A DNA stretch of 64,000 nt. It comes from an uncultured SAR86 cluster bacterium. Lineage in GTDB: Bacteria; Pseudomonadota; Gammaproteobacteria; Magnimaribacterales; D2472. Below the pieces are notes generated by a model that searched no databases, was not told the DNA's origin, and saw nothing but the letters and a program-made list of their open reading frames with translations. The position numbers were made by a program, and so were the translations under genes. The stretch is from assembly GCA_902509555.1 (NCBI GenBank), contig CABWYS010000001.1:1-64000 (forward strand), given 5' to 3'. How positions within the stretch are numbered: position 1 is the stretch's first letter; each line of letters begins with the position of its first letter. Shown piece by piece: positions 657 through 7,663 of this stretch.

Positions 657-1772
657 TTATTTCTCCTTTTGATTAGTTAGGTTAACGATGATTCCTTCGT
701 TTGGATTAATTTTTCCATCAACCATTTCTTCATAAGTGCTGATAAAATTTTCTAAACCATGAATCTCTTTGACTTGCATCCAATTTTTACTTTGAAGCGC
801 TCTAGCAGTCATGAACGAATTTGTTTTTTCAGCATAACCATCATGCCCCCAGTCCCCAATTCGCTTTTGGATGTGAGCTGGGGCAAAAAAGAATTCTGTT
901 CGATCTCGAAGCATTGCCTGCCCTAAAGCATCCTCAGCAGTAGTCTCATTATCCCAGTGCGTCATACCAACAGTGAGACACTTAAGCATGTTATCTCCTA
1001 GCTCCCCATGGAGGGTTCCAAGAATTTCTCGATTACCAGCCATATCAACCATGACAGAACCCGCTGAATAATCTACATTACTAAGCTCATCGTAAGAAAT
1101 CACTTCATCATAACAACCAAGGTTTTCTACAAACTTTGAGTTCGATGCAGATGTAAGTCCAACTATTTTAGGTGCATTTTCAGTATCAGCTAAACCTTGA
1201 GCCAGGCCAATAGCAGTTTTACTCGAGGCGCTAACTACAATTACTTGAGATGCTTCAAAGTATAAATCTTTAGCCAAAGAGTCACATAAACAAAATGCCG
1301 TGATATGAAGCGGGAATAGAAGAGCTCTGACTGCATCCATGGATGGATCGTAATTTTGATCTCCATTAAGCCTCACATAATTATTGTAAACAGGAGGGAG
1401 TTCTTTGCGGTGTTCTTTACCATCACTAAAGCTTTGATCAGAGACTTTAATTGGACTTAAAGTTAATGAGTCTGCAGCTGGAAAATAGCCAAAAAGTCGT
1501 TCTCCAACATTCAAATCTTCAATGTTTGAGTGGGTAATTTCTGCAAATCCCCACATGGGTATGCAGCCCCATTCATTATCTACATTATTTTTAGCTGGAA
1601 AAAATTTCCAATACCCAATCGTATCTCCCGCGACACCATAAGTGACGTTATTTGCTGTAAAAGCATAACTTTCAATTCTCACAGCAATTTCATCTTCATG
1701 AATAGAAGCCAAATTGGAATCTACAATCCTTGATTGAGTTAAATCTGATTTTAAAGTTTGAAATTGGCTCAT
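657..1772 (-). CDS. DUF2855 family protein
   Basis: ORF; RIESYAFTANNVTYGVAGDTIGYWKFFPA and WGCIPMWGFAEI motifs of the family. Confidence 0.8.
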   Translation of the reverse strand: MSQFQTLKSDLTQSRIVDSNLASIHEDEIAVRIESYAFTANNVTYGVAGDTIGYWKFFPAKNNVDNEWGCIPMWGFAEITHSNIEDLNVGERLFGYFPAADSLTLSPIKVSDQSFSDGKEHRKELPPVYNNYVRLNGDQNYDPSMDAVRALLFPLHITAFCLCDSLAKDLYFEASQVIVVSASSKTAIGLAQGLADTENAPKIVGLTSASNSKFVENLGCYDEVISYDELSNVDYSAGSVMVDMAGNREILGTLHGELGDNMLKCLTVGMTHWDNETTAEDALGQAMLRDRTEFFFAPAHIQKRIGDWGHDGYAEKTNSFMTARALQSKNWMQVKEIHGLENFISTYEEMVDGKINPNEGIIVNLTNQKEK

Positions 1773-1786
1773 AATATTTTTCTAAA

Positions 1787-2254
1787 TTATTTTTTTTGTA
1801 TTAGCGAAAGGCTAAAAAGAATGATTAAAACAAAAGTTACATAAGGAGCCCCAACTGCTCCAGGAGTAACACCAACAGTATAAATCCCTTGAATAACTAT
1901 GTCTTCTCTAATTAAAGGGTATCCAAACGTTCTAAAGCTCCACTCAAATAACCAAAATAAATACATTAATGGAATAAGTGCTCGGTATCGAAAAATTACA
2001 ACCCAGCAAACCAAACAAAATATTAACTGCACAAAGCCCCAAAGAGAAAAAAATCTATAAATCAGCAGCATTGGATCAGGATCACCTTCGATAGTTAAAA
2101 AATTTCCAATTTCATGAAATCCATATTTCTCAAAAAACATATGAACGATTGACCGCCATGTCATTAGAAGTGTGAATAAAATAAATCCCCAAAGAGCAAT
2201 CTTTTGGCCATTAAAATTATTATCAGCCACGGGAGGGAAAATTTTATTGAGCAC
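1787..2254 (-). CDS. Hypothetical multi-pass membrane protein
   Basis: ORF, 155 aa, four hydrophobic stretches, tightly packed in cluster. Confidence 0.65.
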   Translation of the reverse strand: MLNKIFPPVADNNFNGQKIALWGFILFTLLMTWRSIVHMFFEKYGFHEIGNFLTIEGDPDPMLLIYRFFSLWGFVQLIFCLVCWVVIFRYRALIPLMYLFWLFEWSFRTFGYPLIREDIVIQGIYTVGVTPGAVGAPYVTFVLIILFSLSLIQKK

Positions 2255-2667
2255 TACATAGCTCCTTCTTTTGTTTCTATGTTTAATTGCCCAAGCAGTC
2301 CTGCAGATCTATGTTTCTCACTTTCTTGATAATCTGAGCTCATCATCATTTCAAGCATTGCTTTTCTACTTGGATATCTAGCGATTGCAACGCTATCCCA
2401 GAGATCCTCAACCTCTCCAAGCATCAAGCGACTGACAACTCCTCCAAAAACTATTTCTGCTCCAACTTTTTTTAAATGTTCTTGAACTTCAATAGTATAA
2501 ATTTGATAGGCCTCTCTCCCTGACATTTCAGTATCTCTGCCATCTTCGTATTCAGCTTTTTCTTTAAATTTAAGAAGATTAACCATTGAAATTGGTGAAT
2601 CAATATCGCCCTCAAGAAACTCATTCATTTGAGTTTGATTGGGTGTGACCATGTTTTTAACTTCCAT
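2254..2667 (-). CDS. DUF1330-like protein
   Basis: ORF; MVNLLKFK...YQIYT...VGAEIVFGG...WDSVAIARYPSRKAMLEMM pattern. Confidence 0.7.
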   Translation of the reverse strand: MEVKNMVTPNQTQMNEFLEGDIDSPISMVNLLKFKEKAEYEDGRDTEMSGREAYQIYTIEVQEHLKKVGAEIVFGGVVSRLMLGEVEDLWDSVAIARYPSRKAMLEMMMSSDYQESEKHRSAGLLGQLNIETKEGAM

Positions 2668-2669
2668 CC

Positions 2670-3284
2670 TTAGTCTCCTAAAGTAATTGCTTTCTGAAAA
2701 GCGGGTCTCGCATTTATTCTTGCAACATAATCTTTAATGTTTTCCATCTCGTCATTTACACACCCCAATCTATTAGCCATGAAACATGAGTGTCCAAGCA
2801 TGAGATCTGCACCTGAAAAATCTCCTATTAGGTAATCTTTATCAGCGAGATTCTCATTCACAGGGGCTAAAGATTTTGTGAGTAGATTTTTTGCTTGATT
2901 TAAAACAGTTTCATCTCTTCTGTCAGGTGGTAATAAGATAGTTTGAACAACAATTTGATTCATTGGAGGCATAACCATGCCTTCACAATAGTGGTACCAC
3001 TGCAGATAAAAAGGAAATTCAGGAGCATCTGAACTTGGCTTCAATCCTCCATTCTTATGTCTTTCTAAGACATAATCGATAATAGCGCCAGATTCAAAAA
3101 TTGAAATGTCTCCGTCTTCTAAAACGGGTACTCTTCCTAGAGCGTGTCTTGCTCTATGCTCTAGAGATTTTAAGCCTTCTTTAGTAAAAGGCATTATGTT
3201 TACCTCATATTCCAACCCCAACTCTTCTAATAACCAAACAACTCGACCTGCCCTAGTTCCAGCAACAAAATGTACTTTTAGCAT
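2670..3284 (-). CDS. Glutathione S-transferase family protein
   Basis: ORF; thioredoxin-like N-domain with [27 protein letters not shown]. Confidence 0.85.
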   Translation of the reverse strand: MLKVHFVAGTRAGRVVWLLEELGLEYEVNIMPFTKEGLKSLEHRARHALGRVPVLEDGDISIFESGAIIDYVLERHKNGGLKPSSDAPEFPFYLQWYHYCEGMVMPPMNQIVVQTILLPPDRRDETVLNQAKNLLTKSLAPVNENLADKDYLIGDFSGADLMLGHSCFMANRLGCVNDEMENIKDYVARINARPAFQKAITLGD

Positions 3285-3297
3285 AATCTTCTCCTAT

Positions 3298-3987
3298 TTA
3301 TTTTTTCACCATTTTTTCTGCATTTTTTGCAAACTCTTTTGCCTTTTCATCATCATCTAACAAACTTTCCATTTTGATAGGAACTTCAAGCCCTGCGGTC
3401 ATTCCAGGTTGTTCATACATAGCTTTCATCCATCTTTCTAAATGATCAAGACCCTCGATTGAGATCCCTGACCACTTATGAGTTCTAACCCAACACCAAT
3501 TGGCAATATCAGCAATTGAATAATCTTTTGCTAACCATTCCTGCTTACCAAGTTGTGTATCCAAAACTTCAAAAAGCCTTCTTCCTTCATTTTGATAACG
3601 ATCAATGGCAGGTTGAATTTTCTCAGGAAAATACCTAAAGAAAACATTGGCTTGTCCCATCATAGGCCCCACTCCACCCATCTGAAACATAAGCCACTCA
3701 AGAGCTTTTGCTTTTTCATTTAGATCCGAAGGAATTAACTTTCCAGTTTTTTCTGCAAGATAGATCATAATTGCACCCGATTCAAAAATAGATAAATCAT
3801 TTGCATCTCTATCAACAATCGCAGGAATTCTGCCATTAGGACTTATGGCAAGAAATTCAGGCTTTTTTTGTTCATTTTCCATTAAATTAACTACGTGGGT
3901 CTCATAGTCCAATTCCATTGCCTCCAAAGTACATGAAACTTTGTGTCCATTTGGGGTTGGTGCTGTGTAAAAATCAATCATAATCAC
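3298..3987 (-). CDS. Glutathione S-transferase, YfcG/YghU-like
   Basis: [65 protein letters not shown]. Confidence 0.85.
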
Positions 3988-5069
3988 TCCTGAATAAAAG
4001 ATACTAGAATATCAGATAATTGCTCTGGCCTTGTCCACTGATAAAAATGTCCACCGCCAATGTGAGGTGCGCTTTTTGCATTTGGGGCCATTCTAAGAAC
4101 ATCTTCCTCAATTCCGTTTGTTACAGGATCGTCGCCTGCAAAGACAGATAGAAATGGCTTGGTTGAAAGATTAAAAAAATCTCTTGCTTCTTTTTGAGCT
4201 TCTAAAGATGCATCTGGCAGCACTGGAACATGGCTTGGCATGGCTCGAGGACCCATTTTATATGTTGAGTCTGGGAAAGGTGCGTCATAAGCTTTAACTA
4301 GGTCCGAGGTAAATGGTGATAGTTTTCCTAAGCCCATGCTTTCAAAAAAATATTGCCCCGTCATTGACAATTTAGATCTTTTTTCCATCATGGTTGAGTT
4401 GATAAATCCTATTGGTAAATTTTCAGTATCCCAGCAAAATTTTTGCCAATACATAAATTTTAATGCTGGATGAAAAGTTGCAGATGAACCCTTTGAAGGA
4501 CTCTTCCTATCCATTTGCATAACCTCTTTTTGCATGCTCATTGGGGTAAGTTTCAAATCACTTTCTCTAAAAGCTTGAACTTGATCTATAACCTCTTGCG
4601 GAACGTCCGGGTTATAAGGCAATCCAGTATTTCCCATGGATACCTTAATAAATCGATCTGGATCTTGGGCAACCATACGCAAGCCAATAAGCCCTCCCCA
4701 ATCCTGCCCAAAAAAAGTGAGATTAGAGAAATTGTTTTCTTTTAACCAGTCACCCATCCAATCTACTTGCCTTTGATAGCTATAGTCCTCTCGCGCAGCA
4801 GGTTTATCTGATTTTCCATATCCTGGTAAGTCCGGGGCTATAACTCTAATGCCAGCCTTGTTAAGAAAGGGGATCATGCGAGCATAGAGATAACTCCATA
4901 CAGGCTGACCATGCATTGCCATAAGCATTGGACCATCTTTTGGACCTTCATCAATATGATGAATTCTTAAATCTGCTCCATCATGGGTTTTAATGGTTGT
5001 GTAATGAGGATCAAAAGGATATTCCTTTAAATCATCAAATCTCTCATCGGGCGTTCTTAATATTTCCAT
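3984..5069 (-). CDS. Haloalkane dehalogenase family (HLD-I / DhlA-like alpha/beta hydrolase)
   Basis: ORF; N-terminus [36 protein letters not shown], nucleophile [22 protein letters not shown], acid FAGDDPVT, His GGGHFYQW. Confidence 0.8.
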
Positions 5070-5071
5070 TC

Positions 5072-6112
5072 CTAGTTTCTTAAAATAAAATCTTCACAAC
5101 CAGTTTTCTTTAAAAAGGCCATAATTTGATTTTGATCATCATCATTTAAAGCATGAAATTCACCATTTATCCATTGCAGGCATTTTGCTTGATAGGTAAA
5201 GCTCCGTTGCTCCCATTGGGCGCCATCTATTTGAGCGGTCCAAGTCTTTTCTTCGGCAGCAATCGCTTTTGCATTTGCTAAAAGTGCCGGTAAGTAAACT
5301 TTGCCAACCTCTATAAATATGTCTACTAATTGCTCTTGAGCCTCCTCATAACTAACCCAATCATCGTCTTCAGGATCCAGGCCACTCAAATCTTCCATGA
5401 GATCCTGCCAGGCAAGAACTCGTGGTGAAACTTCGTGAGCGATTGCTCGAGGTGTTGGATCAAAGCCAGTTAATGCAACCAATTGACCGAATATTGCGTA
5501 ATCAGCTGATGACGGGCGACTGCCAAATAAAAATGAATTTTTTGACAAGCAATCTTCAAGCTGTTGAAGAAATCTCTTATAACTTGCCTCAATGATTGGT
5601 GCAGTTGTTTCATTTGAACCTACAACCCAAAGTCGGCTTATCTGTAATTCAGAAATGCCTTTTTTGAAAGCTTGATGTGATTCATTATCGAGACTCACAT
5701 CATGCAACAATGGTAATATAGTACCTGCTTTATCTATATCTTCTTTGAAGTGCCATCTGTAATGAAACATATATTTTGTGACCCACTCATCTCCAAAATC
5801 TTCTAAAACATAGTTCAAAAAAGCTAGTTTTGGATCATGAGGAATTACCCCTCTATCAGGAAATTCATTCTCTAAATGGTGAATGATTGGAGTAGAATCA
5901 GTGATTGCTTTATGCGCACCATCAACCTCAAAAATCATCACTGGAAGTAAAACGGGTTTTGGCGCCTCAAGGTTATGTTTTTCAATCAACTCCCTGGCAT
6001 TACCCCACTCTACTGTGTATGGAATCCTTCTGTAACGAAGCAAGGCAAGCATCTTTCTTGTATACGGTGAAGCTGGCACTCCAATAACTGGGATAGGGTT
6101 CAAGCTTTTCAT
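5072..6112 (-). CDS. Large GST-fold protein (347 aa) with C-terminal extension
   Basis: ORF trimmed to MKSLNPIPVIGVPASPYTRKMLALL; start 2 nt after upstream gene stop; GST C-domain SADYAIFGQLVAL. Confidence 0.7.
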   Translation of the reverse strand: MKSLNPIPVIGVPASPYTRKMLALLRYRRIPYTVEWGNARELIEKHNLEAPKPVLLPVMIFEVDGAHKAITDSTPIIHHLENEFPDRGVIPHDPKLAFLNYVLEDFGDEWVTKYMFHYRWHFKEDIDKAGTILPLLHDVSLDNESHQAFKKGISELQISRLWVVGSNETTAPIIEASYKRFLQQLEDCLSKNSFLFGSRPSSADYAIFGQLVALTGFDPTPRAIAHEVSPRVLAWQDLMEDLSGLDPEDDDWVSYEEAQEQLVDIFIEVGKVYLPALLANAKAIAAEEKTWTAQIDGAQWEQRSFTYQAKCLQWINGEFHALNDDDQNQIMAFLKKTGCEDFILRN

Positions 6113-6114
6113 TC

Positions 6115-7038
6115 TTAAAATTTCTGAGCAGACATCCTTTTGCATGCCGCATTAAATTCGCTGATGGTTTCGTCGATGATTTGAGCGACTGGTTTGACTA
6201 CATCAATCAACCCTGCTGACTGGCCAGTCAGAGCAGGCGCTGCATTCATATCTCCTCCAAAGTAGAGATCTTGAATTTTCATCATGTCAGTCATCTCCAT
6301 GACACCAGCTTCATATATTTTTTCGGTAAATTCTGTTTTTAGCGCTCTAATGCAAGGTTTTGATTTTTTATTGAGAATCCATGTTCCCTGCTCATCTGAA
6401 TCAATAATTGAGTTTTTAAAGTTGTCATGCACTGGACTTTCTTTGGAAGATACAAACCTAGTTCCCATCTGGATGCCTTCTGCTCCAGCCGCAAAAGCTG
6501 CAGCCATACCTATTCCATCAACAATTCCGCCCGCTGCAACAATAGGCAAGTCAGTATGTTGTCTAATTGCTTGAATTAACACTATCAAGCCAACCTCTTC
6601 AGGACTTTTAAAACCCCCACCCTCCGTGCCTTCAATAACCAAGCCATCCACACCTGCATTTGCAGCTTTTACAGCTCCGGCAACACTGGGCACAGCATGA
6701 AAGACCTTGATACCTGCATCTTTTAGTATATGAATGTATTTCCCAGGATCGCCAGCAGAAGTGGTTACAAACTTTATGCCCTGCTCTAACACCAATTCAA
6801 TCATGCTCTCGTCCCTTAAGAACATTAAGGGCAGATTCACACCAAAGGGTTTATCTGTGAGTTTTGACATAGCTAAAATCTCAGCTTTGCAATTTTCAGT
6901 CTCTCCAGAAGAAGTTTCGATGATGCCAAATCCTCCTGCATTTGAAACAGCAGAAGCTAGCTGACTTCTGGCAATCCACCCCATGGGCGCTTGAATGATT
7001 GGATACTTAACCCCTAAGATTTCAGTTACTCTATTCAT
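6115..7038 (-). CDS. Nitronate monooxygenase / 2-nitropropane dioxygenase-like FMN enzyme
   Basis: ORF trimmed to MNRVTEILGVKYPIIQAPMGWIA; VIEGTEGGGFKSPEE, AAGGIVDGIGMAAAFAAGAEGIQMGTRF. Confidence 0.85.
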   Translation of the reverse strand: MNRVTEILGVKYPIIQAPMGWIARSQLASAVSNAGGFGIIETSSGETENCKAEILAMSKLTDKPFGVNLPLMFLRDESMIELVLEQGIKFVTTSAGDPGKYIHILKDAGIKVFHAVPSVAGAVKAANAGVDGLVIEGTEGGGFKSPEEVGLIVLIQAIRQHTDLPIVAAGGIVDGIGMAAAFAAGAEGIQMGTRFVSSKESPVHDNFKNSIIDSDEQGTWILNKKSKPCIRALKTEFTEKIYEAGVMEMTDMMKIQDLYFGGDMNAAPALTGQSAGLIDVVKPVAQIIDETISEFNAACKRMSAQKF

Positions 7039-7047
7039 AGAATAACA

Positions 7048-7080
7048 ATATCTATTGACATAAATTATGTCAATAGATAT
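7048..7080. promoter_or_regulatory. Perfect 33-bp palindrome (16-bp arms, 1-nt centre), putative TetR operator overlapping divergent promoters
   Basis: atatctattgacataa-a-ttatgtcaatagatat; forward TTGACA (7055-7060) N17 TATATT (7078-7083); reverse TTGACA (7073-7068) N17 TATTGT (7050-7045). Confidence 0.85.
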
Positions 7081-7093
7081 ATTCTGAATAATA

Positions 7094-7663
7094 ATGGCAA
7101 AACAAGACGGAAGAAATCTACGAAGCATCAATAGTCAAAAACTCATCGTGGATGCTTGCATCAAATTATTCAAAGAAGGCAATTTAGAACCGACTGCCCA
7201 ACAAGTTGCTGATGAGTCCGGGGTTGGAATAAGAACTGTTTTCAGACAATTTGATGAAATGGAAAACCTCTTCAAAGCTGTAGATGCGGTCTTAAGCAAG
7301 GATTATGATTTTAATTTAAAGTACGACCCCTCCTCATCATTTGAGGTACGACTCCAATCCCTCACAAATCACATGAATGTAGTCTATGAAAAACATAAAT
7401 TAATTATGTTTATGACTGTTTCTAAAATGTGGAAGTACGAATTTTTACGAGAAAATTATTTAATGTATCAAGATCGCATAAAAGATAAAACCGAGGAAGT
7501 TCTTCCCGAAGTTTTAGGTTTCGATGCTGAATCGAAGAATTTATTCCATGCAAGCCTATCCTTTGCAATGTGGACAAGGCTTCGAGGTCAAAAATTAAAT
7601 AATAGTCAGATTAAAAAGGCTATGCTCAGGCAATGCCTCTTGATTGCAAACGATATCAGGTAA
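7094..7663 (+). CDS. TetR/AcrR family transcriptional regulator
   Basis: ORF; N-terminal HTH LIVDACIKLFKEGNLEPTAQQVADESGVGIRTVFRQFDEMENLF. Confidence 0.85.
   Translation: MAKQDGRNLRSINSQKLIVDACIKLFKEGNLEPTAQQVADESGVGIRTVFRQFDEMENLFKAVDAVLSKDYDFNLKYDPSSSFEVRLQSLTNHMNVVYEKHKLIMFMTVSKMWKYEFLRENYLMYQDRIKDKTEEVLPEVLGFDAESKNLFHASLSFAMWTRLRGQKLNNSQIKKAMLRQCLLIANDIR

Follow-up and report, generated by a model that had tools for sequence, protein, structure and literature searches.

We propose that the 33-bp perfect palindrome at 7048-7080 of this SAR86 contig is very probably the operator through which the adjacent TetR-family regulator controls its own gene, superimposed on two mirror-image sigma-70-type promoters and heading a small regulon. 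In this model, which draws on sequence comparison among relatives, a TetR dimer would bind the inner 19-23 bp, TATTGACATA-N3-TATGTCAATA, covering both TTGACA -35 boxes. Bound TetR would shut tetR (plus strand) and the NMO-GST-dehalogenase-GST-GST-DUF1330-DUF2855 operon (minus strand) together, and a ligand would release it, turning both directions on; TetR binding, repression, transcript start sites and induction at the palindrome are all predictions of the model. SAR86 bacteria are abundant in the surface ocean and, to our knowledge, hard to grow, which leaves their regulation little known; the analysis offers a testable repressor-operator pair and a likely target gene list for this group. 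In kind, the element would be a TetR operator and divergent promoter pair of an already known sort, whose unusually complete symmetry has a simple explanation.

The palindrome and its setting

The following features were located in the window, the whole stretch of 64,000 nucleotides that was analyzed:

657-1772, minus strand: DUF2855 protein, probable distal operon gene
2254-2667, minus strand: DUF1330 protein
2670-3284, minus strand: GST (GSTc)
3298-3987, minus strand: GST (GSTb)
3984-5069, minus strand: haloalkane-dehalogenase-like alpha/beta hydrolase of the PRK00870 subfamily (NF002043, 315.8 bits, cut-off 265)
5072-6145, minus strand: GST-like protein (GSTa), overlapping the NMO-like gene
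6115-7038, minus strand: NMO/FabK-like flavin oxidoreductase, first operon gene (PF03060, 192 bits; FabK model below its cut-off)
7045-7073, minus strand: predicted operon promoter (-35 TTGACA 7073-7068, 17-bp spacer, -10 TATTGT 7050-7045)
7045-7083, strand not applicable: 39-bp block invariant in 9/9 genus orthologues (ungapped alignment on the palindrome)
7048-7080, strand not applicable: perfect palindrome, 33 bp (16-bp arms, 1-bp centre; exact match)
7053-7075, strand not applicable: candidate operator core, 23 bp, TATTGACATA-N3-TATGTCAATA, recurring in genus genomes
7055-7073, strand not applicable: minimal motif TTGACA-N7-TGTCAA, found upstream of remote TetR relatives
7055-7083, plus strand: predicted tetR promoter (-35 TTGACA 7055-7060, 17-bp spacer, -10 TATATT 7078-7083)
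7094-7663, plus strand: TetR-family regulator, 189 aa, presumed palindrome binder (PF00440, 27.6 bits, cut-off 24)

The palindrome occupies the 55-bp gap (7039-7093) between the divergent ATGs of the NMO-like oxidoreductase gene (7038, minus strand) and tetR (7094, plus strand), its arms pairing 16/16 around a single central base. A preliminary description had given this sequence and its coordinates exactly and had called the symmetry unusually long, which our controls bear out: elsewhere in the 64-kb window, perfect palindromes have arms of 10 bp at most, 40 dinucleotide shuffles produced arms of up to 11, and about 4e-5 palindromes with a 1-base centre and arms of 16 or more would be expected. 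The 33-bp palindrome exceeds chance. On the minus strand, the NMO-like gene heads a tight same-strand run of GSTa, the dehalogenase-like hydrolase, two GSTs, DUF1330 and DUF2855. DUF1330, GST and dehalogenase-like genes also recur beside these TetRs in several classes. Viral or mobile origin was rejected, as no tetR relative was found in viral contigs and relatives share the gene order of the locus.

Long perfect symmetry could also act as a nucleic-acid structure, whether cruciform, hairpin, terminator or processing site, and a terminator scan does list a minus-strand hairpin at the palindrome. The palindrome, however, precedes both genes and the predicted transcript starts, nine genomes preserve its letters themselves without compensatory changes, and identical letters recur at dispersed sites, leaving such a role extremely improbable. 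An Rfam search at the palindrome found no family match, and with the palindrome itself as the sole terminator-like hit, an RNA element was rejected.

Predicted mirror-image promoters and the candidate operator core

The palindrome had been described as carrying TTGACA on both strands, each followed 17 bp on by a -10-like hexamer, and we located these hexamers at 7078-7083 (plus strand) and 7050-7045 (minus strand). The forward promoter (TTGACA-17-TATATT) matches the consensus at 11/12 positions and the reverse promoter (TTGACA-17-TATTGT) at 10/12, its -10 TATTGT matching at 4/6; TTGACA, a spacing of about 17 bp and a TATAAT-like hexamer, kept in relatives, are the signature of a sigma-70-type promoter. 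The two -10 hexamers stand 27 bp apart, with the -35 boxes in between.

Relatives were scanned for the same operator, and the tetR locus was found in nine genomes of the genus, the window's included, with the identical 33 bp in 9/9. The accompanying TetRs are 69-98% identical, plus one that is frame-split. The invariant block extends over 39 bp, its two ends coinciding exactly with the outer edges of TATTGT and TATATT; the columns just outside vary, in a comparison blurred there by differences in leader length. Over the opening 60 codons, 22/60 third positions are invariant in tetR and 23/60 in the NMO-like gene, indicating that a 39/39 block is not mere genome closeness. The earlier picture of a palindrome doubling as back-to-back promoters holds in that the conserved block stops at the outer edges of the -10 hexamers, but the promoters (7045-7083) overrun the palindrome. 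The frame-split tetR (G010; loci L012 and L021; G010:C1:321327-321880) falls into two frames and has a perfect operator.

The tetR transcript is expected to start near 7090, giving a near-leaderless message, and the operon transcript near 7038, giving a leaderless one. Five loci with 36-41% identical TetRs carry TTGTCA-N17-TATAAT with the tetR ATG 5-6 bases later, which supports the forward promoter and also a message without a leader. The reverse promoter is invariant within the genus, and its counterpart is weaker in more distant relatives, some loci excepted; at L141, L152, L161, L162 and L164, TTGACA-17-TATATT stands on the non-tetR side. When -10 matches were averaged by spacing, the tetR side peaked at 17 bp (3.76/6; next 3.17 at 15 bp), and the extra sites elsewhere in the genomes gave no clear peak at 17 bp (3.35 at 17 bp, 3.65 at 15 bp), in a scan whose hexamers fall partly inside the core. 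Each promoter would fall inside the other's footprint, and two polymerases at once look impossible. We tentatively suggest, as a possibility we would not favor, that one polymerase enters at a time, so that with the repressor off the direction is random, tetR and the operon are coupled by competition and both messages are leaderless.

A site that covers -35 boxes is a repressor position in bacterial promoters. TetR might instead be an activator or repress one side only; the sequence is compatible with this and the reverse -10 is weak, but the position of the site over both -35 boxes is that of a repressor, and we regard this alternative as distinctly unlikely.

How much of the 33 bp the repressor would contact was judged from other sites. 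Across 20 genus sites without an adjacent tetR, the five positions flanking the core match their mirror partners at only 37%. They hold little information apart from the -10 position, whose first T, located downstream at 17 bp from TTGACA, is well conserved. At the distant locus L097, symmetry is down to 19 bp. From the non-symmetric outer 5 bp and the 19-bp palindrome of L097, we read the 33 bp as operator plus promoter bases: the inner 19-23 bp probably make up the operator itself, and the remainder would be mirrored promoter bases, since the first bases of each -10 must sit 17 bp from the -35, mirroring GA-TAT. These same observations speak against all 33 bp being an operator for two TetR dimers, as with QacR, with the promoter overlap secondary. 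The length of 33 bp, long for a single TetR dimer, and its invariance in nine genomes would fit two dimers, which we nevertheless consider unlikely. Read as a single-dimer operator, the site is a natural example of an operator that looks longer than its repressor needs, with the extra symmetry coming from two promoters.

The TetR protein and its link to the site

The AlphaFold model of the 7094-7663 protein is all-helical, with 11 helices and a mean pLDDT of 90.8, and a fold comparison against the PDB matches it best to TetR-type regulators (TM about 0.6). The protein shows the marks of the TetR family: an N-terminal TetR_N helix-turn-helix, an all-helical fold with helix-turn-helix and ligand-binding domain, and a palindromic operator that adjoins its own gene and is kept together with it.

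Site and gene also travel together. The site lies 14-48 bp before a tetR relative in 22 genomes of the order, and at order level tetR and site are associated (26/48 versus 9/155 genomes; Fisher p 1.3e-12, with kinship and incompleteness ignored and the sites partly tetR-adjacent). Within the genus, extra sites occur in 9/9 genomes with tetR versus 5/17 without (p 6e-4, kinship and incompleteness again ignored). These association statistics overstate independence, because the genomes compared are related to each other and incomplete (many 55-90%). Further afield, TTGACA-N7-TGTCAA (at most two mismatches, within 200 bp upstream) precedes 35/80 TetR relatives, compared with 0/80 for the reversed control, and the relatives with the motif include Rhodobiaceae, Parvibaculum and Sphingomonas records, reaching as far as alphaproteobacteria. 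In a relative from another family, whose TetR is 40% identical, TATTGACATATATTATGTCAATA stands between tetR and the GST and dehalogenase genes. The motif would serve as a consensus for a TetR subfamily extending to other proteobacteria. Five alphaproteobacterial TetR relatives (L140, L150, L157, L163 and L166) have a TTGACA-N7-TGCCAT-like site upstream and a DUF1330 neighbor, which suggests a wider related regulon.

Three relatives (G006, G014 and G017; loci L213, L214 and L215) keep the operon and lack both tetR and the palindrome; in G006 and G017, acyl-CoA synthetase and SDH-like genes run directly into the NMO-GST-dehalogenase operon, the SDH-like gene leading straight to the NMO-like gene. 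The site might serve a different regulator or some nucleoid protein, with tetR adjacency a matter of hitchhiking, and sites do persist in five genus genomes in which tetR was not found, among them G006, where tetR is absent at the syntenic locus. That alternative is very improbable given the joint absence of site and tetR in the three relatives and the presence of the motif before remote TetR relatives that belong to other families and classes, amid changing neighbors; the sites in tetR-less genus genomes are possibly decayed, or possibly used by another regulator. The proposal in the preliminary description that TetR binds here would stand, on the evidence of the 9/9 loci, the remote relatives, the extra copies and the joint absence, but the operator would not be the whole 33 bp, and its target would be a wider regulon.

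Known systems and the candidate regulon

In the classical tetR-tetA pair, divergent genes have palindromic operators over their promoters, with autoregulation and two separate 15-bp-class operators. The SAR86 locus is alike in divergence, in the operator over promoters and in its proposed autoregulation, but has a single operator. In Rhodococcus, the TetR-type regulator DhaR adjoins the haloalkane dehalogenase gene dhaA, a likeness in gene neighborhood. KstR governs a catabolic regulon of dispersed sites. The fold of KstR from Mycobacterium tuberculosis is among the matches (PDB 5ua1 and 5ua2, bound to operators of 18 and 26 bp), whereas sequence identity is 14-18% and both operator sequence and regulon are different. 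In E. coli acrR-acrA, the TetR-family AcrR represses in vitro both the gene that encodes it and the divergent target (PMC12825309), and AcrR at PacrA/acrR is the nearest described logic: a TetR-family repressor acting in both directions at a symmetric promoter region (PMC12825309). The two acrR-acrA directions share one -10, the defining property of a class of bidirectional promoters whose start sites flank or fall inside that shared element (PMC12825309), and one that the SAR86 site does not have; here the -10 hexamers lie outside and the -35 boxes face to face inside the operator. A literature search did not find the operator sequence, and searches on SAR86 with TetR, SAR86 with dehalogenase and GST, and DhaR found nothing on point.

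Pattern searches for the core, with the reversed pattern (itself palindromic) as control, detected it in 14/26 genus genomes (control 0/26) and in 35/203 genomes of the order (control 1). The preliminary description had suggested looking for further copies in the genome, and one was found at C38:3023-3045. Most extra sites precede a start codon by 8-50 bp, and the gene behind them in most genomes is an amidohydrolase, whose site has at most one mismatch to TTGACA-N7-TGTCAA in 8/9 tetR-bearing genomes. Other genes behind extra sites encode dehalogenase-like hydrolases, a thiolase, a TonB-dependent receptor, a DUF3604 protein, a DJ-1/PfpI-like protein and an HlyD-type membrane-fusion protein. 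TetR probably acts on several distant genes as well, using this core at each. A two-mismatch site overlapping genes (L042) is probably chance. The amidohydrolase gene behind the second operator copy in the window's own genome (L044, C38:1069-2965) reads as two overlapping frames; its orthologues are intact.
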